From Kofleriaceae bacterium (GTDB taxonomy: Bacteria; Myxococcota_A; Polyangia; Haliangiales; Haliangiaceae): 64,000 nt of DNA. The translations under genes and the position numbers were made by a program. Numbering within the stretch: the first letter of the stretch is position 1; every line of letters begins with the position of its first letter. The notes beneath the pieces are model-generated. The model was not told the DNA's origin. It saw only the letters and a list, made by a program, of their open reading frames with translations, and ran no database searches. The stretch spans positions 1-64,000 of the forward strand of contig JANTGM010000020.1 of NCBI GenBank assembly GCA_024762925.1, given 5' to 3'. Of the stretch, positions 10,944-59,425 are shown piece after piece.

Positions 10944-11275
10944 CCTACAACGTTAAGGTGTCGCCCAAGGCGAGCCAACTCTTCATAGAGGCGAATGAGT
11001 GGTGGGTCGAAAATCGACCGGCAGCACCAACTCTGGTTACCCAAGAGACGAATCGCATCCTTGCATTCCTATCCGACTCGCCCAAGATCGGCGGGCAAGA
11101 ATTGGGCGCAGGGTCCCTGATGCCAGATGGCGGTTGCCGAATTGACGGTGTGCTCGCCGCGCGAAACTACAGCGTCACTTCGGCCCTTTCGGGCGTGAAA
11201 TTACGATGGAAGGTCGGCTTTCGACTGCTAGGCCAGGGCGCGCAAGGCTTCCTTCACGTTGCTCACGCCGATTAG
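10940..11275 (+). CDS. ParE/RelE-like toxin, C-terminally replaced
   Basis: The open frame gives 111 residues, but only about the first 50 look like toxin: MTYNVKVSPKASQLFIEANE, then WWVENRPAAP and ILAFLSDSPKIG, as in ParE-type proteins. After that the frame enters a dispersed repeat (11094-11222) and reads unrelated sequence, then the antisense of the radA 3' end. The usual C-terminal core strand with its Arg residues is absent. The start overlaps the antitoxin stop (ATGA). Most likely an inactive toxin truncated by the repeat. Confidence 0.6.
   Translation: MTYNVKVSPKASQLFIEANEWWVENRPAAPTLVTQETNRILAFLSDSPKIGGQELGAGSLMPDGGCRIDGVLAARNYSVTSALSGVKLRWKVGFRLLGQGAQGFLHVAHAD
11094..11222 (+). repeat. 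Dispersed repeat R1, copy 1
   Basis: This segment matches 18919-19041 almost base for base: the last 98 bases differ at only about six positions, and the left part (GGCAAGAATTGGGCGCAGGG) aligns with a small gap. It forms the foreign 3' part of the toxin ORF and ends 6 bases before the radA stop codon. No terminal inverted repeats or coding content were recognised. Boundaries on the left are approximate. Confidence 0.85.
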
Positions 11276-12684: not shown

Positions 12685-12861
12685 CGAGTGTCGGATTCAA
12701 AACTCTTGCTCGCGCTCGCTCGGCTTTTCGCCCTCTGGACGCCTCCGGCTCTGCGTTGCTCAGCGCCTCACTTGCCCCACCAGCAAGCTCGCTGTTCGCG
12801 CCTTGCCAGTGAACGAACTCCCGTCGCGATCATCGATCAACCATTCTGCACCCGACACTCA
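12685..12861. mobile_element. MITE-like element, copy A
   Basis: The termini are inverted repeats: left GAGTGTCGGATTCAAAA and, read from the right end inward, GAGTGTCGGGTGCAGAA (14 of 17 match). The interior is about nine-tenths identical by eye to copy B at 51524, including the shared block AACGAACTCCCGTCG and CGATCAACCATTCTG. No ORF. Without the element that abuts its right end, the tip would read GACACTAG at the stop codon of the outer-membrane protein gene, like the other copies. Confidence 0.85.
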
Positions 12862-18918: not shown

Positions 18919-19041
18919 GGCAAAAATTGGGAGCAGGGCTGAGATGGTGGTTGCCGAATTGACGCTGTGCTCGCCGTGCGAAACTACAGCGTCACTTCGG
19001 CCCTTTCTGGTGTCAAATTACGATGGAAGGTCGGCTTTCAA
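18919..19041 (+). repeat. Dispersed repeat R1, copy 2
   Basis: This matches 11094-11222 (about six differences over the last 98 bases and a short gap near GGGCTGAGATGG). It lies in the 241-base space between the convergent ends of nagZ and the BatA-like gene and finishes 4 bases before the latter's stop codon. The segment upstream (18804-18918) shows no gene or terminator. This copy has no open frame equivalent to that in copy 1. Confidence 0.85.
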
Positions 19042-19044
19042 CAC

Positions 19045-33063: not shown

Positions 33064-35700
33064 ATGACGCCCACAGCTACTACTCGGAAGGCCAAACCCA
33101 AGGCGAAGTCAGCTGGCAACAGCAAGGGGACGGGTTCGTCTTCAGGGCGAAAGAGGGGAGGAGCAAAGGCCCGGACCAAGGCCAAATCCACGGCTCCAAA
33201 GCCCAAGCCTAAGAACCGCAAGTCACACACCAAGGCGAACGCCAAGAAGAAGCAGAGTGGCAAGTCCAAGCGCCGCGGCGCATCGGGCGGAGGAACACGT
33301 GCACCGCGAACGCGTGGCCAGTGGGCACTCCTCATTGCCAAGTGGGGCACCATTGTTGGCTTCTTGTTGGCGGCGCTTGGCGCGGCCGGTCTCGCAGGCA
33401 TGTTCTGGTACTACGGCTCAGATCCAAAGCTGCCTCGGATTGCGAGCTTGCAGGACTACAAGCCAGCGCAGGTCAATCGAGTTGTCACATCTGATGGCAA
33501 ACTCATCGGAGAAATCTTTGAGAAGCGCCGTTCGCGGGTGACGTTCGATCAGTTGCCCGAGTCGCTAGTCAACGCCTTCGTTTCCGCCGAGGACAAAGGG
33601 TTTTGGAAGCACGAAGGAATCGACTACATCGGAATGCTCCGGGCGGCCATCGTCAATGTTCGAGAGGGCAAGAAGAAGCAAGGCGCTTCCACGATCACTC
33701 AGCAGGTTGTGAAGAACCTCCTGCTCACTCCTGAGAGGAGCTTTCGCCGAAAGTTTCAAGAGATTCTCTTAGCAAGGCGTCTTGAGAAAACGCTCTCAAA
33801 AGAAGAGATCCTCATGCTCTATGCGAATGAAATCTTCTTCGGGCATGGACGCTTTGGTGTTCAGGAAGCATCTCGCTACTACTTTGGCAAGGATGTTGGT
33901 GACCTCAACGTAGGAGAGTCGGCGCTACTTGCTGGGCTTCCAAAGGGACCAAACCGCTATTCGCCAAAGAAGCCAAAGAACCACGAGAGGGCCAAAGAGC
34001 GGCAAAGCTACGTGTTGCAGGAAATGATGCACAACGGCTACCTCACGCGTGAGGAAGCACAGCGCTGGATCGACGAGCCGATCGCTGTTGTCGCGGAAGC
34101 CAACCCCCAACTCGGTGCTGCACCAGAGTTTGTCGAGCTCGCCAAAGCGGAACTCTTGGCCTCTATCGGGGAAGAGGAACTCACCGAGTCTGGGGCTGAG
34201 GTGGTTGTTACTGCCGATCTCAAGGTGCAGGCTCTGGCTCGCAAGGCACTTCAAAAGAACCTTCGCAAGTATGATGAGCGCAAAGGCTACGGCCATCCCA
34301 TCAAGAAGCTTCGCGAAAACAAGATCGAGCTCGAACTTGTTCGTATGACCAAACACCTGCCCAAGAAGGGCCCAAAGAAAGGCAAGGTCTATCGCGCGAT
34401 CGTTCTCAAGGCGTACGATGCAGATGCGGAAATCACCGTCGACCTTGGTGGGTACAAGGCGGGTGTCCTGCTCAGTGGTGATTCTGAGGCTCGGTATAAT
34501 CCTGAGAAGAAATCTGCTTCGGAGCGTTTTCCGAGGGGCAGTGTTGTTCGCGTAATGTTGGGCAAAGCTGTTGAGGGCAACGAGAAGAAGTCCCCCAAGC
34601 ACAGCGAAAAGCAACTCGTACTAGCTCCAGGTCCCGAAGGCGCCGTTGTCATCATTGACCCCAAGACTCGCCGAGTGAGAGCACTCGTCGGCGGCTACGA
34701 TATGCGTCTGGCCGGCTTCGATCGCGCAACCATGGCAAAACGCCAGGCCGGCTCCACATTCAAGCCCTTTGTCTACGCCGCTGCAATCGATAGCGGTGAC
34801 TTCACCGCGGCGAGCATCGTGAATGATGCCCCAGAGGTTTATGATTTGTGGAAGCCAGAGAACTACAAAAAGGGCGCCTTTGCTGGGCCTGTGCGGCTAC
34901 GTCATGCGCTCAACAAGTCCATCAACACTGTGGCGATTCGCGTTTGTCACGATATTGGGCCTCAGCGGGTTCGGGACTTGGCACATGCCTTAGGCATTCA
35001 GAGTGATCTCCCGGATGGGCTTTCACTGGCGCTCGGTTCGGGCGAGGTAACACCACTCGAACTTACGAATGCATTTGCATCGATCGCAGCTGCTGGCCGC
35101 TACGCGCCACCGCTTTCCGTCGAATCGCTAGGAGGAGATGCACGGGTTGTTGGGGAAGGCACCGAGGCTATGCGTCCCGAAGTGGCTTACATCGTTCTCG
35201 ACATGATGCGCACCGTGATGACAAAAGGGACTGGTGCCAAAGCTGCGTCGCTGGGCATGGACCTAGCTGGCAAGACGGGCACCTCAAACAATGCACGCGA
35301 TGCTTGGTTTGTTGGTATGAGCCCCGACGTTGTGGTGGGCGTTTGGGTTGGTTTTGATGATTTTCGTCAGGAACTCGGATCCAAAGAGGGCGGTAGTCGC
35401 ACAGCCCTTCCCGTCTTCATCGACCTTATGAAGGAACTCGGATCCAAGTCGGCGCGCTTTCCGCGACCACCTGGCATTGAAGCTCTTCGCATCGATGAAA
35501 CCACAGGGCTGTTAGCAGCAGATGGAGCCATCGAAGGTAGCTATGAAGAAGTATTCTTAGAAGGCAGCGCACCGACTGAGGTTGCTCCGACCAAAGGCGA
35601 GGTTGGTGCAGACGATGCAATCCTCGATCAGTACGGTGACTTCGATGCTCCAGTCCCCAGCCTCGAGACGCCGCCTTCACCAGCGGCTGGGGCGCAATGA
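33064..35700 (+). CDS. Penicillin-binding protein 1A, bifunctional
   Basis: The protein has 878 residues. About 80 residues of Lys/Ala/Ser-rich cytosolic tail precede a membrane helix (about 95-118). The GT51 domain starts near 170 with EDKGFWKHEGIDYIG and has QGASTITQQVVKN. The transpeptidase domain shows SxxK as STFKPF (Ser563), SIN (about 618) and KTGT (about 737). Length and order match PBP1A. The highly basic tail is unusual and might bind nucleic acid or a partner. It begins the run 33064-36749 (ATGA overlap with the next gene). Confidence 0.95.
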   Translation: MTPTATTRKAKPKAKSAGNSKGTGSSSGRKRGGAKARTKAKSTAPKPKPKNRKSHTKANAKKKQSGKSKRRGASGGGTRAPRTRGQWALLIAKWGTIVGFLLAALGAAGLAGMFWYYGSDPKLPRIASLQDYKPAQVNRVVTSDGKLIGEIFEKRRSRVTFDQLPESLVNAFVSAEDKGFWKHEGIDYIGMLRAAIVNVREGKKKQGASTITQQVVKNLLLTPERSFRRKFQEILLARRLEKTLSKEEILMLYANEIFFGHGRFGVQEASRYYFGKDVGDLNVGESALLAGLPKGPNRYSPKKPKNHERAKERQSYVLQEMMHNGYLTREEAQRWIDEPIAVVAEANPQLGAAPEFVELAKAELLASIGEEELTESGAEVVVTADLKVQALARKALQKNLRKYDERKGYGHPIKKLRENKIELELVRMTKHLPKKGPKKGKVYRAIVLKAYDADAEITVDLGGYKAGVLLSGDSEARYNPEKKSASERFPRGSVVRVMLGKAVEGNEKKSPKHSEKQLVLAPGPEGAVVIIDPKTRRVRALVGGYDMRLAGFDRATMAKRQAGSTFKPFVYAAAIDSGDFTAASIVNDAPEVYDLWKPENYKKGAFAGPVRLRHALNKSINTVAIRVCHDIGPQRVRDLAHALGIQSDLPDGLSLALGSGEVTPLELTNAFASIAAAGRYAPPLSVESLGGDARVVGEGTEAMRPEVAYIVLDMMRTVMTKGTGAKAASLGMDLAGKTGTSNNARDAWFVGMSPDVVVGVWVGFDDFRQELGSKEGGSRTALPVFIDLMKELGSKSARFPRPPGIEALRIDETTGLLAADGAIEGSYEEVFLEGSAPTEVAPTKGEVGADDAILDQYGDFDAPVPSLETPPSPAAGAQ

Positions 35701-36749
35701 AACCGGTCTGTAGCGCACTGCTGCTTGCGTCTATGGCGTTGTTTTCGTCGCAAGCCATCGCTGCCGAACCCACCCCTCTGCAGCAGTGGTGGAAACGCTT
35801 GAACGCTGACATCAACGCGTTAGTCGAGCAACATCGATTGGTGCCGCCAACGCCTGTCACTGTTCGCTTTCGCGCTCGTCGCATTTGGTCTGGAGCGCTG
35901 TCTGGAGAACTCTTGGACCTGGGTGTCGCGGATTTGGGAAATGATGGTCAAGACGAACTCATTGCTCTCACGTCGGATTCGCTGCTCATTCTTTCTCGCC
36001 GACGAGGACTCATTGACGTTCGACAACAGGTGGCGTTGCCCATGACCGTTGCCGCGACTCGATCGCGCGACCCAATTGGAATGCTCTCGATCGAAGAGAC
36101 GAAGATGCGAGAGCTGGTGGGGGGCGGAACGAATGAGGTCTCGGTGCGAGCGCGCAGCAGTGAGCGCGGTGCGGGTGGAGTGTATTCTTGGCGGAGTGGC
36201 ACCTTGGAGCTGGATTCAGAATTTGTCGGATACCCGCTCTGTGACACAGGGCGAATCGAGGCGGAACCTGGACGCAATTACTTCCTTGGCAGCACCGCAA
36301 AGCCGTCGGTCGAGCCCCCGCTTGCGCCCAAGGTCCAGCTTGCTCGATGCAGTCGCGGGCTGCGAGACCCACTCGGGAACGATGTGCGCTATGTGAGCGA
36401 TGTGTCGGTGGCCGGGATACTTTCGGTTCGGTGTGAAGGCGGAGATGATGTCTGTAGCCAGGAGGTTACGAGATATTCTGATGTAGGGTATGCGCATCTT
36501 GTTAGCGACCTAGATAACGATGGTCATGCTGAAATCGTGACCACCAAGGCCTCCGCCCAAGGAGATGCAGACCGGGTGCAAGTTTTCTCGCACAGCACGG
36601 GGGAGAAGCGGTTGCTCTTTGAACGCGAGTTTGAACGAGGTATCGTCGCCCTCACCGCTGGCGACTTCGATGGGGATGGAGCCTTGGAGCTTCTGGCCGC
36701 GGAGCGTCAGGCGAAGGCGGGAAGGGTGAGCCTGTGGCTTCTCAACTGA
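35697..36749 (+). CDS. Secreted FG-GAP/VCBS-like repeat protein
   Basis: The protein has 350 residues with a signal peptide ending near AIAAEP. Three Asp-rich loops characteristic of FG-GAP/VCBS beta-propellers are visible: DLGNDGQDELIAL (about 78), DLDNDGHAEIVT (about 270) and DFDGDGALELLA (about 328). Four cysteines lie in the middle. Probably periplasmic or surface-exposed and calcium binding. It overlaps the PBP1A stop by ATGA, and its last 16 bases overlap the start of the solute-binding gene. Confidence 0.75.
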   Translation: MKPVCSALLLASMALFSSQAIAAEPTPLQQWWKRLNADINALVEQHRLVPPTPVTVRFRARRIWSGALSGELLDLGVADLGNDGQDELIALTSDSLLILSRRRGLIDVRQQVALPMTVAATRSRDPIGMLSIEETKMRELVGGGTNEVSVRARSSERGAGGVYSWRSGTLELDSEFVGYPLCDTGRIEAEPGRNYFLGSTAKPSVEPPLAPKVQLARCSRGLRDPLGNDVRYVSDVSVAGILSVRCEGGDDVCSQEVTRYSDVGYAHLVSDLDNDGHAEIVTTKASAQGDADRVQVFSHSTGEKRLLFEREFERGIVALTAGDFDGDGALELLAAERQAKAGRVSLWLLN

Positions 36750-38215
36750 CACAGCTCTTGCTCCCTCTGGTGCTCGCTTTGGTGCTTCCCCAGGCATCGG
36801 CCCATGCTGAGAGCCGTCCCACCTACGGGAAAACGCTGGTCGCATCACTCCTCGAAGAGCCGCTTGTGATCGATCCAGTTGCAGCTCGAAGCCACACTGA
36901 TATGACAGTCATATCGCTGCTGTTCGACACGTTGTACCGAGTCGAGCGAGGCAAAGTCGTTCCACACCTGGCCGCGGCAATGCCGGACACAAGCGATCCA
37001 CTCCAGGTGTCGATTGCCTTGCGTTCAGGCGTTAGGTTTCACGATGGCACATCGCTTCGCTCCCAAGATGTTGCATCGAGTTTGGAACGCGTGCGAAATA
37101 GCGACCTGGGATTTCTCTTAGAAGGCGTAAAGAGTATTGCAGTTGGTGACAATAACGACAGCCAATTCAATCGTGTTGTTCTTACGCTGCGAAAGGCGGA
37201 TTCTGGATTGGCGCGACGACTCGCCGATTTGCACACATCCATCGTAGCTCGAGGAAAAACTCCAACATGGCGTAGATTGGTTGGCAGTGGTGCTTGGCGG
37301 CTTGGTCAGCGCTCGGGTCGCAAGAACTCGCTGACCCTAAAGCCCTTTGAAGCCCACTTTGCTGGCAGAACGTACCTCGATTCGCTCGTGCTCAATTGGT
37401 ATGAGAGCGCCGCAGCTGAGGCGAGAAACTATGAGGCTGGCGGTTCTCACATCTCTGCACGCGGTGAGATTGCCTTCGCCGGTCACCGACCGAAATACGA
37501 AACCAAGAGCACCCAAGGCGACATTGGGGCTCTGTCCTACTTGGGATTTGGAACAGCGTCGCCCATCACCAAGGAAAGCGCGTTTCGCCGAGCTGTCTCC
37601 CTGGCAATGGGCCGGTCGGGCATGAGCCAAATTGGCAGTGGTGAAGAGGTCACTCCAACGACCAGTGTTCTCCTTCCCCGCCGTCCTCCGCGACCGTTCG
37701 CCTTGAAGGCCAACCCCAGGGCTGCCACCGATCTCTTGAAGTCGCTGAGCAGTCGATACCCAGCAGTCGAGGCAAAGACGCTCACCTTGCAGCTCATCGT
37801 CAATAGTTCACGCCCCGACGATGCCGTTATCGCTGCGCGAGTGGCAGCTGGACTCTACGTACTTGGTATCACTACACGCATCGTTTCGCTTACCGCTGAT
37901 GTCTTTGCTCGACGTGTCCGCGCAGGGGACTGCGACTTGTACCTTGGGCAGCTTGCTGCCAGCGGCTCTCCTGGCCTCGCTCGGCTGCGAAAGGCCTTTG
38001 TGATTGGTGGCCAGGTGAAGACAGCACAAAAACTCTTTGGGCAAAGTCGAGCAAGCATGGAACGACAATTTGCGGCGACACTTCCCATCGTTCCGCTCTT
38101 TCGCAGAAGTCTGCGATTGCACATTCGAAGCGATGTGAATGGGGTTGACTTCGAGGCTACAAGGACCATCGACTATCCTGGTGTCTTCTTCTTCGGCGAG
38201 CCCGTTAAGAATTAG
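36734..38215 (+). CDS. Family 5 solute-binding protein (peptide/nickel type)
   Basis: The protein has 493 residues from a GTG at 36734 (AAGGGTGAG just before it), with a signal peptide ending near ASAHAES. Recognisable SBP_bac_5 features: LLFDTLYRVERGKVVPHLAA, then SIALRSGVRFHDGTSLRSQD and RRAVSLAMGR. These proteins bind peptides or metals in the periplasm for ABC importers; no permease or ATPase genes are nearby. The next gene is a membrane histidine kinase, so it may feed signal sensing. The stop codon TAG is the left tip of MITE copy C. Confidence 0.85.
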   Translation: MASQLTQLLLPLVLALVLPQASAHAESRPTYGKTLVASLLEEPLVIDPVAARSHTDMTVISLLFDTLYRVERGKVVPHLAAAMPDTSDPLQVSIALRSGVRFHDGTSLRSQDVASSLERVRNSDLGFLLEGVKSIAVGDNNDSQFNRVVLTLRKADSGLARRLADLHTSIVARGKTPTWRRLVGSGAWRLGQRSGRKNSLTLKPFEAHFAGRTYLDSLVLNWYESAAAEARNYEAGGSHISARGEIAFAGHRPKYETKSTQGDIGALSYLGFGTASPITKESAFRRAVSLAMGRSGMSQIGSGEEVTPTTSVLLPRRPPRPFALKANPRAATDLLKSLSSRYPAVEAKTLTLQLIVNSSRPDDAVIAARVAAGLYVLGITTRIVSLTADVFARRVRAGDCDLYLGQLAASGSPGLARLRKAFVIGGQVKTAQKLFGQSRASMERQFAATLPIVPLFRRSLRLHIRSDVNGVDFEATRTIDYPGVFFFGEPVKN

Positions 38216-38372
38216 TGTGCATTTCACTGACATTGCTTCGTGCTCGTTGGTTGTCAAGCTCGTCGTCCAGCGTTGCGGCAGTCTCTGCGCCCAGCCTGTT
38301 CCCGCTTCGTGCCTCGGTAGGAACCACGATACCTGCGCGAGATTCGCACCAACTCCAATGGAACGGACACTA
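38213..38372. mobile_element. MITE-like element, copy C (degenerate interior)
   Basis: The ends are TAGTGTGC on the left and GGACACTA on the right, flanked by a TA duplication as expected for IS630/Tc1-type insertions. The interior is diverged from copies A and B but keeps CTTCGTGCCT and nearby GAAC blocks. The left TA lies in the TAG stop of the solute-binding gene. The right end is two bases from the ATG of the histidine kinase gene. Removing one TA plus the element restores stop, one base, ATG. Confidence 0.75.
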
Positions 38373-38374
38373 GA

Positions 38375-40126
38375 ATGAAGCTTCGTGGACGGTTTACTCT
38401 CTGGTTTGGCCTTGCGGCTCTTGTTCCCATTACCGCCGCTGCGTTGGTGACAAGGTCAATTGTCTCCGGAGCCCTGCGCGATGATGCGGAGCGTGGGCGC
38501 GCTGTGAGTACCAAGGAGATGCAGCGAGTTCTCTCGGTGCTGGAAGACGACGTGAAGAGTCGAGTCGCAGGATTGGCAACGTCGGAGGGTGGCTATGCGG
38601 GAGGCACACTTCTCGAGCTACAAACTCACGAGGGGGTACTGCCAAGTGAGTCGCGCAAGCGGCTGAGTGACTCGGGAGGGCCGCTTATGCGCCAGCTCTC
38701 ATTGGACCTCCTGTACCTGCTCGACCACAACGATCGCGTGCTTGACGCACCACACTATGTGCCGGCGCTTGGCGAAAAGGCCGAAGACCTGGGCACAGCA
38801 GCGCGCGAGAACGATGGCAAGCCGTATTACGCGATGGAGACGCTGTTGGAGCCCGATGGGATTAAGAGCGTGCTGGTGCTTGAGGCGGCGAGAACCTTGC
38901 AACAAAAAGGGTATGCAGTATCGGTTGTGGGAGCGAGGCGAATTGAAGCGGAACTCTTTACCTCGGTTCGCAAGTTAGAGGGAGTGCGACTCCGGGTTGT
39001 TGGTCCCCGAGGCAACGAGATCATCGCTCCTGAGGGCGCGTGGAGCGAGAAATCAGAACGATTCTCATTCCCTCTCCTTGGGCGGGACGGCAAGGAGATT
39101 GCGCGGGTAGAGATGAGCATCGTCAACGAGGCTCTTCCTGCGGTCTTGGAAAAGGTGACGCTGTATTCGGCTGCTCTTGCCCTTGCTGCACTATTGCTCA
39201 CACTACTTTTGGGGTTCTTAGTAGCGAAGCGTATTACTCGCGACCTGGACTTCCTGGTCGATGGTGCACACGCGGTTGCGAGGGGCGAGCTCGACCACCA
39301 AGTACAGACGCGAAGTGATGATGAGGTTGGAGAAGTGGCGGAGGCGCTTAATACAATGATGGTGGAGCTTGCCGATTCGAAGGAGCGTCTCATGATGGCC
39401 GAGCGAGTTGCTGCCTGGCAGGAGATTGCCCGTCGCCTGGCCCACGAAATCAAGAATCCGCTAACGCCGATTCAGATGTCGATGGAGACGCTGCGCAAGA
39501 CCTATCAGAAGAAGCATCCTTCCTTTGACGAGATCTTCGAGGAGTCTACCGCAACGGTGCTTGAAGAAGCCGGTCGACTCAAGCGGATTGTGGCGGAGTT
39601 TTCTGAGTTCGCCCGGATGCCAAAGCCCAACAAGGTATCACTCGATGTGGGCGCACTCATTACCGCACAGCTTTCGCTATACGCGGGCAGTGCAAGAATA
39701 GAAAAACACTTAGCTGACACTCTTCCGCAAATTCAGGGTGACAAAGACACACTCAGCCAGCTAATTCTAAATCTGATTGAGAACGCGCGCGATGCGACCA
39801 GAGACGTGCCTGAAGGAGCTGTTGGAGTGACAACGGAGGTCTCTCGAGAGGGGCGGGCTGTGGCCATTCATGTTGATGACAACGGCCCAGGTGTGTCCGG
39901 GGAGGCCCGTGACAAGCTCTTCACTCCCTACTACACGACAAAGCACGCCCACGGTGGAACCGGGCTTGGCTTGGCGATTGCCCATCGCATCGTCTCAGAT
40001 CATCATGGAAAGATCAGCGTGGGCCAGAGCCCCATGGGGGGCGCGCGCTTTAGTGTCGAGCTGCCGATTGTTGGCGAAGACAGCGTGCCTGCGGGCATGA
40101 GTGCGTCGATGAAACGCTTCCGCTAG
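38375..40126 (+). CDS. NtrY-like membrane histidine kinase
   Basis: The protein has 583 residues. A first membrane helix lies at about 7-27 and a second at about 260-285, with a 230-residue extracytoplasmic sensor between. HAMP (RITRDLDFLVDGAHAVARGE) leads to the HisKA box RRLAHEIKNPLTPIQMS (His near 356). The ATP-binding N box (LILNLIENARDATR) and G boxes (DDNGPGVSG, HGGTGLGLAIAH) are complete. The linker FAEFARMPKP-type segment resembles NtrY. No response regulator is adjacent. Its start is two bases from MITE copy C. Confidence 0.92.
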   Translation: MKLRGRFTLWFGLAALVPITAAALVTRSIVSGALRDDAERGRAVSTKEMQRVLSVLEDDVKSRVAGLATSEGGYAGGTLLELQTHEGVLPSESRKRLSDSGGPLMRQLSLDLLYLLDHNDRVLDAPHYVPALGEKAEDLGTAARENDGKPYYAMETLLEPDGIKSVLVLEAARTLQQKGYAVSVVGARRIEAELFTSVRKLEGVRLRVVGPRGNEIIAPEGAWSEKSERFSFPLLGRDGKEIARVEMSIVNEALPAVLEKVTLYSAALALAALLLTLLLGFLVAKRITRDLDFLVDGAHAVARGELDHQVQTRSDDEVGEVAEALNTMMVELADSKERLMMAERVAAWQEIARRLAHEIKNPLTPIQMSMETLRKTYQKKHPSFDEIFEESTATVLEEAGRLKRIVAEFSEFARMPKPNKVSLDVGALITAQLSLYAGSARIEKHLADTLPQIQGDKDTLSQLILNLIENARDATRDVPEGAVGVTTEVSREGRAVAIHVDDNGPGVSGEARDKLFTPYYTTKHAHGGTGLGLAIAHRIVSDHHGKISVGQSPMGGARFSVELPIVGEDSVPAGMSASMKRFR

Positions 40127-50150: not shown

Positions 50151-51527
50151 ATGAGCCCCCTCAACATTGTTCTCATTGTCATCGGCGTGCTCTTTCTTCT
50201 TAGTGTTGTCTCCCCAACGCTCCGTCGCGTATGGACCTTTCACATCTTGGTGCTCAAGTACATGCTCTTTGGCTTGGGCGATGTGGTGCGCATTCGTCCC
50301 TTGGTCTTGAAGCTCAAGGGGAAGCGATACGTTCGCATGACGCGGCCCATGGCACTTCGTCTCTTTTGCGAAGACATGGGGGTTACCTTCGTTAAATTTG
50401 GGCAGATTATCGCTTCGTCTTCGGGAATCTTTCCGCAGCGCTACGTGGAAGAGTTTCAAAAGGTGCTGGATCGAGTTCGCCCGTTTGACTTTGCCTTGGT
50501 TTCGCAGACTATCGAGGACGAACTCGGAGAGAGCGCATCGCGGCTCACAAACATTGAGGCCAAGCCACTCGCATCTGCTTCGGTTGCCCAGGTGCATGCC
50601 GCAGAGTTGCGAGATGGCACGAACGTCGTCCTCAAGATTCAACGACCAGGCATCGACAAGATCATCGACGCAGACATGCGCATAATGCGCTTCTTGGCTG
50701 TGGTCGCGGAGAAGGTCGTTAAGGATGCCGAACTGATGAACCCCGTCGGGATCGTGGAGGACTTGGCAAGCACGCTTCTTGAGGAGACTGACTTTCGCAA
50801 AGAGGCAAACAACCTCGAACAGTTCAATCAAATCATGCAACAACACGGGCACGTTCGTGTGCATGCGCCAGTGCCTCAGTGGGAACTGGTGACAAAACGC
50901 GTCCTCGTGATGGAGCGCTTCTACGGCACTCGCGTCGATGACGTCAAGGGCATTGAGGCGCGAGGTGTCAATGCGGAGGACTCATTGGTCGAAGGCATGC
51001 AGGCCTGGTTTCAATGCGTGGTGTTTCACGGTTTCTTCCACGGCGATGTACACGCGGGAAATCTCATGCTGCTGGACAACGAGGACCTCGGCTTTCTCGA
51101 TTTCGGCATTGTAGGGCGCTTTGACGACACTCAGCGCTATCAGGTAACCGACTACATCGTTGGGTTCGCGAGTTCCGATTTCAAGAAGGTCGCCGAGGTG
51201 ATTGGACAGATGGGGGGCGTTTCAACCGGCGTTGATATGGAGGTCTTTGCAGACGACCTGAAGGAGGTCTATGGCCCTTTGCTAACGATGTCGTTCTCGG
51301 AGGTCAACTACGCGAACATCATTCCCAAGATCAACGCTGTGGCTCGCAAGCATCGAATGTCGATGCCCAAGGAATTTGTGCTTATCACCAAACAACTTCT
51401 CTACTTTGATCGCTATGCGAAGTTGCTCGCTCCAACGCTCAACATCTTCACAGATCCGCGGCTCATCATGAGCATGATGAACGACATCGTCAAAGTTCGA
51501 CAAGAGCAAGCCGCAAAAGCGCCCTAG
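50151..51527 (+). CDS. ABC1/UbiB-family atypical kinase
   Basis: The protein has 458 residues. An N-terminal membrane helix (about 3-22) precedes the ABC1 core: KFGQIIASSSGIFP (the KxGQ motif, about 83), then ASASVAQVHAAELRDG (Ala-rich loop) and VVLKIQRPGI (Lys), catalytic HGDVHAGNLMLL (about 300) and LDFGIVGRF. UbiB-type proteins bind lipids and ATP and support quinone biosynthesis or membrane lipid homeostasis. Its TAG stop is the left tip of MITE copy B. Confidence 0.94.
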   Translation: MSPLNIVLIVIGVLFLLSVVSPTLRRVWTFHILVLKYMLFGLGDVVRIRPLVLKLKGKRYVRMTRPMALRLFCEDMGVTFVKFGQIIASSSGIFPQRYVEEFQKVLDRVRPFDFALVSQTIEDELGESASRLTNIEAKPLASASVAQVHAAELRDGTNVVLKIQRPGIDKIIDADMRIMRFLAVVAEKVVKDAELMNPVGIVEDLASTLLEETDFRKEANNLEQFNQIMQQHGHVRVHAPVPQWELVTKRVLVMERFYGTRVDDVKGIEARGVNAEDSLVEGMQAWFQCVVFHGFFHGDVHAGNLMLLDNEDLGFLDFGIVGRFDDTQRYQVTDYIVGFASSDFKKVAEVIGQMGGVSTGVDMEVFADDLKEVYGPLLTMSFSEVNYANIIPKINAVARKHRMSMPKEFVLITKQLLYFDRYAKLLAPTLNIFTDPRLIMSMMNDIVKVRQEQAAKAP

Positions 51528-51697
51528 TGTGGGATCCAGAGGCATAGAACGCCCTGGCTCGGTTCTTCGCCCTCTGGGCGCCTTCGGATCGGCGTTACTC
51601 AGCGCCTCACTTGCCCCAGCAAGCTCGTTGTTCGTGCCTTGCCAGAGAACGAACTCCCGTCGTGATCATCGATCAACCATTCTGGACCGGACACTAG
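51524..51697. mobile_element. MITE-like element, copy B (best preserved)
   Basis: The left end CTAGTGTGGGATCCAGA and the right end read inward, CTAGTGTCCGGTCCAGA, match at 14 of 17 positions. The element is flanked by TA on both sides, with a target reading CTAG when removed (GCGCC CTAG CGCAC). The left TAG is the stop codon of the ABC1 kinase gene. It is about 90 percent identical by eye to copy A. No ORF. The CTAG target with TA duplication is known for IS630-type elements. Confidence 0.88.
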
Positions 51698-52507: not shown

Positions 52508-53643
52508 TAGTAGTCCACCGGCACGATAAGCGCTAGCTGTGAAATTATCGCATCACCGTAACGAGTATCTTGCTTCAGATATTGGCCTAGCGCCTCGACC
52601 CGAACATCGGCCCAGCCGCCTTCAATGCCGAAGAGGTCGAGTGTGGCGGCAAGCTTCAGCCCCATGGTGTGAGTGCGAACTCTTCCGAGTTTATCGTCGT
52701 CAGTAAGGTAGGGCTCGATTGTCACATCGCCTGAGTCGTAGACTTTCTCGTAGAAATCCGCTGCTCGTTGTCGGTGGTAGCGATAGCCCAGGTGAGCTTC
52801 GAGCTTTCCTGAGAAGAACTCTTGAATTGCCCGCACATCAGGTGTGTGGGCCAGAATTCCCCAATCGTCGAAGTAGAAGCGGTATGTCGCAACAAGTGCT
52901 GTATTGGAGGCGTCTACGAAGTAGCGAAGGTTACCGGCGAGCGCGTGACGAAGGCGGGTGTCGGGTACCCGCTCTGGCTGCACCATTCCCCCTGCGACAA
53001 CGGTGCGATAGATATTCTGTTGAAAGCCGTCAAGATAGCTAAGGTCGTAGCTCACTGACGCAGTGCTATTGGTGCTAAGAATTTGACGTAGTGAGGTGGA
53101 GACAAGCGTGGTATCGAGCTCACCTGAGATAATTGCTGAAATACCACCTTGCGATCCTGAGTTGTCGATTGAATCCATGCCGCGAGCCAGGTTGACGCCA
53201 ACCGTGGTGTTGCGCTGCGCGAAATCTGATTCCAATCTGAGCATGACAAAATCGCTTGTGTAGTCGGGCTCGCCGCTGTGTCGGAATCCTGCGCCCAGAC
53301 GGATTGTGTCCAGGCTATGTGTGTAGTTCGCACCGAACTGTGTGCGCGTTTCTGTGAAGGGAGCTCCAGCCGCTCCAGACGCTGCCGAGGCAGACGTAAT
53401 GGCATCGACCAAGGTGTGCGCTTGCAGGCGGCCATTGTCCCCAGCCTCAAGGTCGGCATCGAGCATGGGTTGAACCACGCGGGTTGATTTTTCTTTGTAG
53501 TACACGCCACGCATCGTGACCGTGCCATCTGCGTGGGCGTCATGGGCGGTCGCGATGAGGAGCACGCATCCAATGGCGAGTCCATACAGGCATGTCAAGG
53601 ACGAGAGCCAGCGAGAACGAACCAATGTCAATGACTCACGCAC
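52507..53643 (-). CDS. DUF3570 outer-membrane beta-barrel protein
   Basis: The protein has 378 residues from a GTG at 53643, which overlaps the preceding gene's TAG stop by one base. The signal peptide ends near AHADGT. Long amphipathic strands follow (AGFRHSGEPDYTSDFVMLRL, LVATYRFYFDDWG, HLGYRYHRQRAADF) to a C-terminal VDY. The start GTVTMRGVYYKEKSTRVVQP is typical of DUF3570 proteins. These are usually found beside DUF4266 and ApbE flavin transferase genes; ApbE is absent here. Function unknown. Confidence 0.88.
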   Translation of the reverse strand: MRESLTLVRSRWLSSLTCLYGLAIGCVLLIATAHDAHADGTVTMRGVYYKEKSTRVVQPMLDADLEAGDNGRLQAHTLVDAITSASAASGAAGAPFTETRTQFGANYTHSLDTIRLGAGFRHSGEPDYTSDFVMLRLESDFAQRNTTVGVNLARGMDSIDNSGSQGGISAIISGELDTTLVSTSLRQILSTNSTASVSYDLSYLDGFQQNIYRTVVAGGMVQPERVPDTRLRHALAGNLRYFVDASNTALVATYRFYFDDWGILAHTPDVRAIQEFFSGKLEAHLGYRYHRQRAADFYEKVYDSGDVTIEPYLTDDDKLGRVRTHTMGLKLAATLDLFGIEGGWADVRVEALGQYLKQDTRYGDAIISQLALIVPVDY

Positions 53644-53855
53644 TAGTTACACCCGCAGCCGCCACCCGCTTCACCAGTGCCGCCATCCGCTCCTTCACGG
53701 GATCCTTTGGCATGTTGCTCAAAGCGAGCTTCACCAGCATCTTTGTCAGCCGTCATCGCGGGCTTGGAAAGCGTCGCTCGTTGGTATGGCTTGACACGCA
53801 CACAGCTCGTTAGGGAGGTGGCCAGAATTGCGCTCGCAATCGTGAACTTCAGCAC
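53643..53855 (-). CDS. DUF4266 small lipoprotein
   Basis: The protein has 70 residues from a GTG at 53855. Leader and lipobox TSC (about residue 18) are followed by the family signature CVRVKPYQRATLSKPAM and the C-terminal EAGGGCGCN. It was recognised as DUF4266 from this combined start and ending. It is the first gene of the 53855-51717 cluster and overlaps DUF3570 by one base (TAGTG). The intergenic region to the divergent 53926 gene is 70 bases and should hold both promoters. Confidence 0.9.
   Translation of the reverse strand: MLKFTIASAILATSLTSCVRVKPYQRATLSKPAMTADKDAGEARFEQHAKGSREGADGGTGEAGGGCGCN

Positions 53856-57751: not shown

Positions 57752-59425
<1,674 letters not shown>

Follow-up and report, generated by a model that had tools for sequence, protein, structure and literature searches.

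In an uncultured, Kofleriaceae-like relative of myxobacteria (6.8-Mb genome, labelled G000), a 160-bp MITE relic, here called element C, lies between the gene of a family-5 solute-binding protein (SBP) and that of a histidine kinase (HK). Very probably, a MITE inserted into the SBP stop codon, the stop was rebuilt by the element itself, and stop-start re-initiation of the kinase was lost. The genes and elements found in the 64,000-nucleotide stretch of DNA that was analysed (the window) are listed in Table 1.

Table 1. Genes and mobile-element sequences in the window
Feature	Position	Strand	Basis
Penicillin-binding protein of the PBP1A family, heading the conserved cluster	33064..35700	+	Pfam Transgly and Transpeptidase; synteny
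FG-GAP repeat protein	35697..36749	+	PF13517/PF01839; synteny
Family-5 solute-binding protein (SBP), N-terminal signal-like segment	36734..38215	+	PF00496, 1e-31
SBP stop codon TAG (target TA and first G of element C)	38213..38215	+	sequence
Element C, 160-bp MITE relic including both flanking TAs	38213..38372	+	TIRs, family alignment, empty site in relatives
Second TA copy and GA, sole original bases between element C and the kinase ATG	38371..38374	+	sequence
Histidine kinase (HK)	38375..40126	+	Pfam HAMP, HisKA, HATPase_c
Element A, distant member of the MITE superfamily	about 12688..12860	+	model match, 7e-6; sequence
Element B, distant member; own subfamily with about 50 genome matches	about 51525..51696	+	model match
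53-bp superfamily fragment, left end	53593..53645	-	model match

The PBP1A–FG-GAP–SBP–HK cluster

The four genes form a tight run on the plus strand. PBP1A and FG-GAP overlap by 4 nt and FG-GAP and SBP by 16 nt. SBP and HK are the sole separated pair, with a gap of 159 nt whose sequence is the body of element C. The PBP1A gene scores above the cutoff of NCBIfam TIGR02074. The SBP ORF runs from a GTG start to a TAG stop, and both its SBP_bac_5 domain and its fold place it in family 5. HK has a HisKA domain with the phospho-acceptor histidine and a HATPase_c domain, as expected of a histidine kinase. Its predicted layout is an N-terminal TM helix, an extracytoplasmic mixed alpha/beta domain, a second TM helix, HAMP, HisKA and HATPase_c. 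M1 and H357 (HEIKNP motif) are invariant in an alignment of 27 orthologues.

A search for the SBP covered 55 other genomes at the levels of genus, family, order and class, and the regions surrounding the best matches were extracted. The SBP-HK pair is present in 30 relatives, Kofleriaceae-like Myxococcota and other members of the class, and mostly sits inside the full PBP1A-FGGAP-SBP-HK arrangement. Apart from loci on short contigs and in a handful of distant members, nearly all of them keep this gene order. Counterparts on GTDB contigs come from MAGs labelled Kofleriaceae, Myxococcales, Nannocystineae and Deltaproteobacteria. No response regulator was recognised downstream of the cluster in the loci viewed (window, L064-L094); dapA/dapB-like ORFs lie further downstream in L066 and L072. 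The literature searched holds no description of this cluster.

Spacing between SBP and HK was counted in the 30 loci with a readable SBP stop and kinase start. The genes overlap by 4 nt in 19 loci (18 by script and L093, with GTGA, by eye) and by 1 nt in four. Spacings of +2 nt occur twice, and +8, +13 and +16 nt once each, so that 28 of the 30 junctions fall within -4 to +16 nt. Element C is present at none of the 30. The comparison with element-free relatives that the original prediction had proposed thus came out in its favour.

Element C is a MITE relic

Element C (38213-38372, with its body at 38215-38370) starts with TAGTGTGCATTTCA and finishes with TGGAACGGACACTA. Its TIRs are imperfect, TAGTGTGCATTTCA and TAGTGTCCGTTCCA being identical at 19 of the first 28 positions. 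TA stands at each end; the target-site duplication may be TA, TAG or CTAG, and the empty site is identical for the first two. At 160 bp the element is too short for a transposase gene, and the single listed ORF that touches it (38254-38514, minus strand, 86 aa) extends into the kinase gene. Short length, TIRs, lack of a transposase, multiple copies at unrelated sites and TA ends with an empty site together identify a MITE. Full-length relatives with the same ends elsewhere in the genome bear out the earlier view of a real TIR element and not a chance palindrome. Removing the element and one TA also leaves the junction that had been claimed: AAG AAT TAG, a single A, then ATG AAG CTT, with stop and start one base apart. 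A reading of element C as a structured RNA was rejected: its fold energy is no better than that of shuffles (z 0.30), and it has no Rfam match and no tRNA.

A probable insertion that hit and rebuilt the SBP stop codon

The SBP ends in GEPVKN-stop in the window, GEPEKN-stop in the same-genus genome G001 and GLPEKN-stop in G002. These C-termini align through the last residue and the stop, so that the SBP has kept its original end. The kinase ATG corresponds to the conserved M1 of the orthologues, and an earlier in-frame start is absent. Since the SBP end and the kinase M1 are both conserved, the target can be placed at the TA of the TAG stop; since element C starts with G, TAG was restored. As far as these alignments go, the insertion altered neither protein.

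The junction of G001 reads AAC TAG TG (GAAAAACTAGTG) and includes CTAG. Before the insertion, the lineage of the window probably had the same arrangement, AAC TAG beside the kinase start, and a change of AAC to AAT (both Asn) would yield the TTAG of the window. This ancestral junction is read through the nearest relatives compared, at 50% (SBP) and 68% (HK) protein identity. CTAG is the commonest end motif among sampled copies of the element (25 of 41 left ends and 30 of 42 right ends), followed by CTCG. We therefore propose that a non-autonomous MITE with TIRs, targeting TA in a CTAG-like context, entered the stop codon between SBP and kinase. TA and the G of the element would then have re-formed the stop, leaving SBP and kinase intact, and the stop-start distance, about 1 nt before, would have become 159 nt.

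The MITE superfamily of element C

Close full copies of element C are found in its own genome at C30:25432-25603 and C143:1321-1492, together with an end fragment in contig C5. A sequence model built from the three full copies (window, C30 and C143) has at least 150 matches in G000 (150 scored of 929 candidates). The same model gives 19 matches in G001 (best E 1.2e-7, those listed being partial) and six in G002, all with E 0.16 or worse. Elements A and B, which the original prediction had already pointed out, both prove to be distant members of the superfamily of element C. Most of 40 sampled copies share 93-99% identity with a consensus of ~180 bp (TAGTGCGCGATTCATGAA...CATGGATCGCGCACT), as against about 64-65% for the window, C30 and C143 copies. 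These identities indicate that a young burst overlies an old relic subfamily, which includes the window copy.

Two transposase relics adjoin the superfamily. One is a broken DDE_3 (IS630-type) relic at C40, next to a superfamily end (L187:1620-2100); the other is a DDE_Tnp_1 relic at C213, next to superfamily end or body sequence (L189:1-480). When GTDB contigs, which may exclude the genome of the window itself, were scanned with a pattern of the conserved right end, there was no match. Many G000 contigs (e.g. C190, C108, C6 and C164) start or stop inside superfamily copies. Because contig ends fall inside copies, the superfamily probably breaks up the assembly and its true copy number is probably higher. 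Two further repeats were seen in the window: a 101-nt direct repeat (11125-11225 and 18942-19042, 93% identical) with no evident relation to the TAGTG family, and a 9-nt tandem repeat, GCCCATGCC, in six overlapping copies (57758-57829).

Relic copies at start codons

All three relic copies finish 0-2 nt before a start codon, always by their right end. The downstream starts are the kinase ATG in the window, the GTG of an MshEN-domain protein for the C30 copy and the ATG of a GlpX-like ORF for the C143 copy. The C30 copy (L191:933-1104) directly precedes its GTG and supplies a suitably spaced AAAGGAG (-7.9 kcal/mol). The C143 copy (L190:821-993, minus strand) directly precedes, on the minus strand, the ATG of a putative GlpX-like fructose-bisphosphatase ORF, named by eye from its sequence; its Shine-Dalgarno match is weak (-3.3 kcal/mol). 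In G002 (L231), the MshEN gene and the same neighbour are about 29 nt apart, element-free and with a native AAGGAG (-8.5 kcal/mol). This locus thus shows the C30 insertion site unoccupied, the second such case after the SBP-kinase junction. The corresponding gap in G000 is filled by an element-B-type copy and the C30 copy.

For none of 40 other sampled copies does an ORF of at least 200 aa start 2 nt or less away. The idea that the superfamily in general prefers start codons was rejected on this count. The difference between relics (3/3) and other copies (0/40) gives a Fisher p of 8e-5, a post hoc value with n=3; random positions show such adjacency at a rate of 1.6% per side.

This pattern may reflect survival of relics as leaders; chance is another reading. 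Element C could have been retained as the 5' leader of the kinase, old relics surviving where their right end serves downstream initiation. The shared end and position, the low random rate and the strong Shine-Dalgarno of C30 speak for this, but the pattern was spotted afterwards in three copies, and the Shine-Dalgarno is good in C30 alone, being weak in the window copy (-3.9 kcal/mol) as in that of C143. We regard retention of element C for this reason as doubtful. The broader proposal, that decayed copies persist mainly where they serve as translation leader of the downstream gene, appears improbable. Under it, the right TIR would place a variable Shine-Dalgarno-like GGA(G) 7-9 nt ahead of the start, and TA insertion at a stop/start junction would rebuild the stop while giving the downstream gene a new start region.

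Two widened junctions in relatives

Genes lying far apart with no element between them had been named as the observation that would speak against a split by element C. Only G002, with a spacing of +70 nt, shows this; the +269 nt of G043 is repeat-bearing, and the 28 other junctions are tight. The G043 spacer holds an inverted repeat with 89-nt arms, present in tens of copies in that genome (L091:2339-2538, G043:C283). Judged from its sequence, it is an independent insertion, unrelated to element C, at the same SBP-kinase junction. Similarity between the 70-nt spacer of G002 and element C is not above that of shuffles, and the spacer is unique in the G002 genome and not repeat-like. On this score and this uniqueness, common ancestry with element C was rejected.

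G002 is the closest relative by kinase identity (68%), and one may ask whether element C entered a junction already loosened as in G002 and broke no coupling. We consider this very unlikely: removing the element leaves the tight 1-nt stop-start spacing of the AATTAGAATG junction, and the G002 spacer looks like a separate event. A non-mobile origin of the 160 nt, either as inherited intergenic sequence or as a regulatory leader of the kinase, is hardly credible even though G002 and G043 also hold sequence at this place. These two spacers are a unique sequence dissimilar to element C and an unrelated multicopy repeat; element C, for its part, is bounded by TIRs and TA, has family copies next to unrelated genes, and folds no better than shuffles. 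Insertion of a MITE into the SBP stop codon thus remains the preferred reading.

Likely effect on kinase expression

Simple scans found no terminator-like and no sigma-70-like site in element C, non-sigma-70 promoters being outside their reach. Within that reach, a promoter or terminator inside the element was rejected. Since neither was detected, co-transcription of SBP and kinase may persist. The idea of a split operon therefore holds for translational coupling (159 nt as against -4 to +16 nt).

The arrangement with overlaps of 4 or 1 nt is one in which stop-start re-initiation works, and in pairs from E. coli and H. volcanii little coupling is left once the genes are about 20 nt apart (PMC10666635). 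Coupling over long spacers is reported by other studies, as cited in that paper. At a spacing of 159 nt, loss of translational coupling is thus the best-supported effect of the insertion. Our analysis points to this loss, and not to a broken transcript, as the likely consequence.

The element had been said to provide everything ahead of the kinase, including its ribosome site. It supplies all but 2 nt, and the candidate ribosome site there is a weak Shine-Dalgarno match: GGA, 7 nt from the ATG, in the right end of the element. Its energy of -3.9 kcal/mol compares with -2.2 kcal/mol at the element-free junction, a mean of -6.1 kcal/mol in the relatives and -3.0 +/- 2.5 kcal/mol for random 20-mers. 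On a still common transcript, the kinase would be initiated de novo from this weak GGA, and the SBP:kinase ratio would have changed. The kinase is presumably still made, since its frame and catalytic motifs are intact.

The SBP-kinase pair as a candidate sensor

The AlphaFold model of the SBP has a pLDDT of 87.8. It matches many family-5 binding proteins about equally well, among them AapF, a sialic-acid SBP, PrgZ, MppA, OppA and NikA (VIA Z about 28-35). A cell-wall peptide is a reasonable guess for the ligand, since the murein-peptide binder MppA is among these model-based matches and PBP1A is linked. The extracytoplasmic domain of the kinase lies between two predicted TM helices and is modelled with a pLDDT of about 90. 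Foldseek assigned no known fold to this sensor domain, the listed matches being kinase cores or long models with low overlap. Genetic linkage of SBP and kinase is conserved in the 30 relatives, and SBP-assisted sensing by the pair, as originally suggested, is plausible from this adjacency. Neighbouring sbp and kinase genes are not always functionally linked, and some adjacent pairs did not interact (PMC11113362).

Discussion

Element C resembles IS630/Tc1-mariner-derived MITEs in being short and non-coding, with TIRs, TA ends and a CTAG context. IS630-family elements enter TA and duplicate it (PMC2170065); their preference for CTAG is stated in the title of a 1991 study by Tenzen and Ohtsubo, as listed in that paper. 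In contrast to such MITEs, the ends of the element C family show CTCG besides CTAG, and relics of both DDE_3 and DDE_Tnp_1 type adjoin the superfamily.

Bacterial intergenic MITEs and repeats can change gene expression, according to two reviews (PMC10969869, PMC2229807). Like the elements treated there, element C lies between co-directional genes and may have changed downstream expression. Unlike them, it sits exactly in a TAG stop that its first base rebuilds, and relatives show the element-free state. A MITE between genes of an operon is a known kind of event, of which this case is unusually clean.

As in SBP-assisted histidine kinases (PMC11113362), the gene of a periplasmic-type binding protein directly precedes that of a kinase with an extracytoplasmic domain. 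Here, by contrast with the pairs described in that work, the SBP belongs to family 5 (peptide/nickel/murein-peptide type) and is linked to PBP1A and FG-GAP genes.

The finding draws attention to an extensive MITE superfamily of a Kofleriaceae-like genome, and to a conserved PBP1A-FGGAP-SBP-kinase cluster whose ligands may be peptides or come from the cell wall. It also amounts to a natural experiment, in which a junction of -4 to +16 nt, as kept in 28 of 30 relatives, was widened to 159 nt with both proteins apparently unchanged. The case can thereby show how much translational coupling matters for a binding protein and the kinase presumed to work with it.
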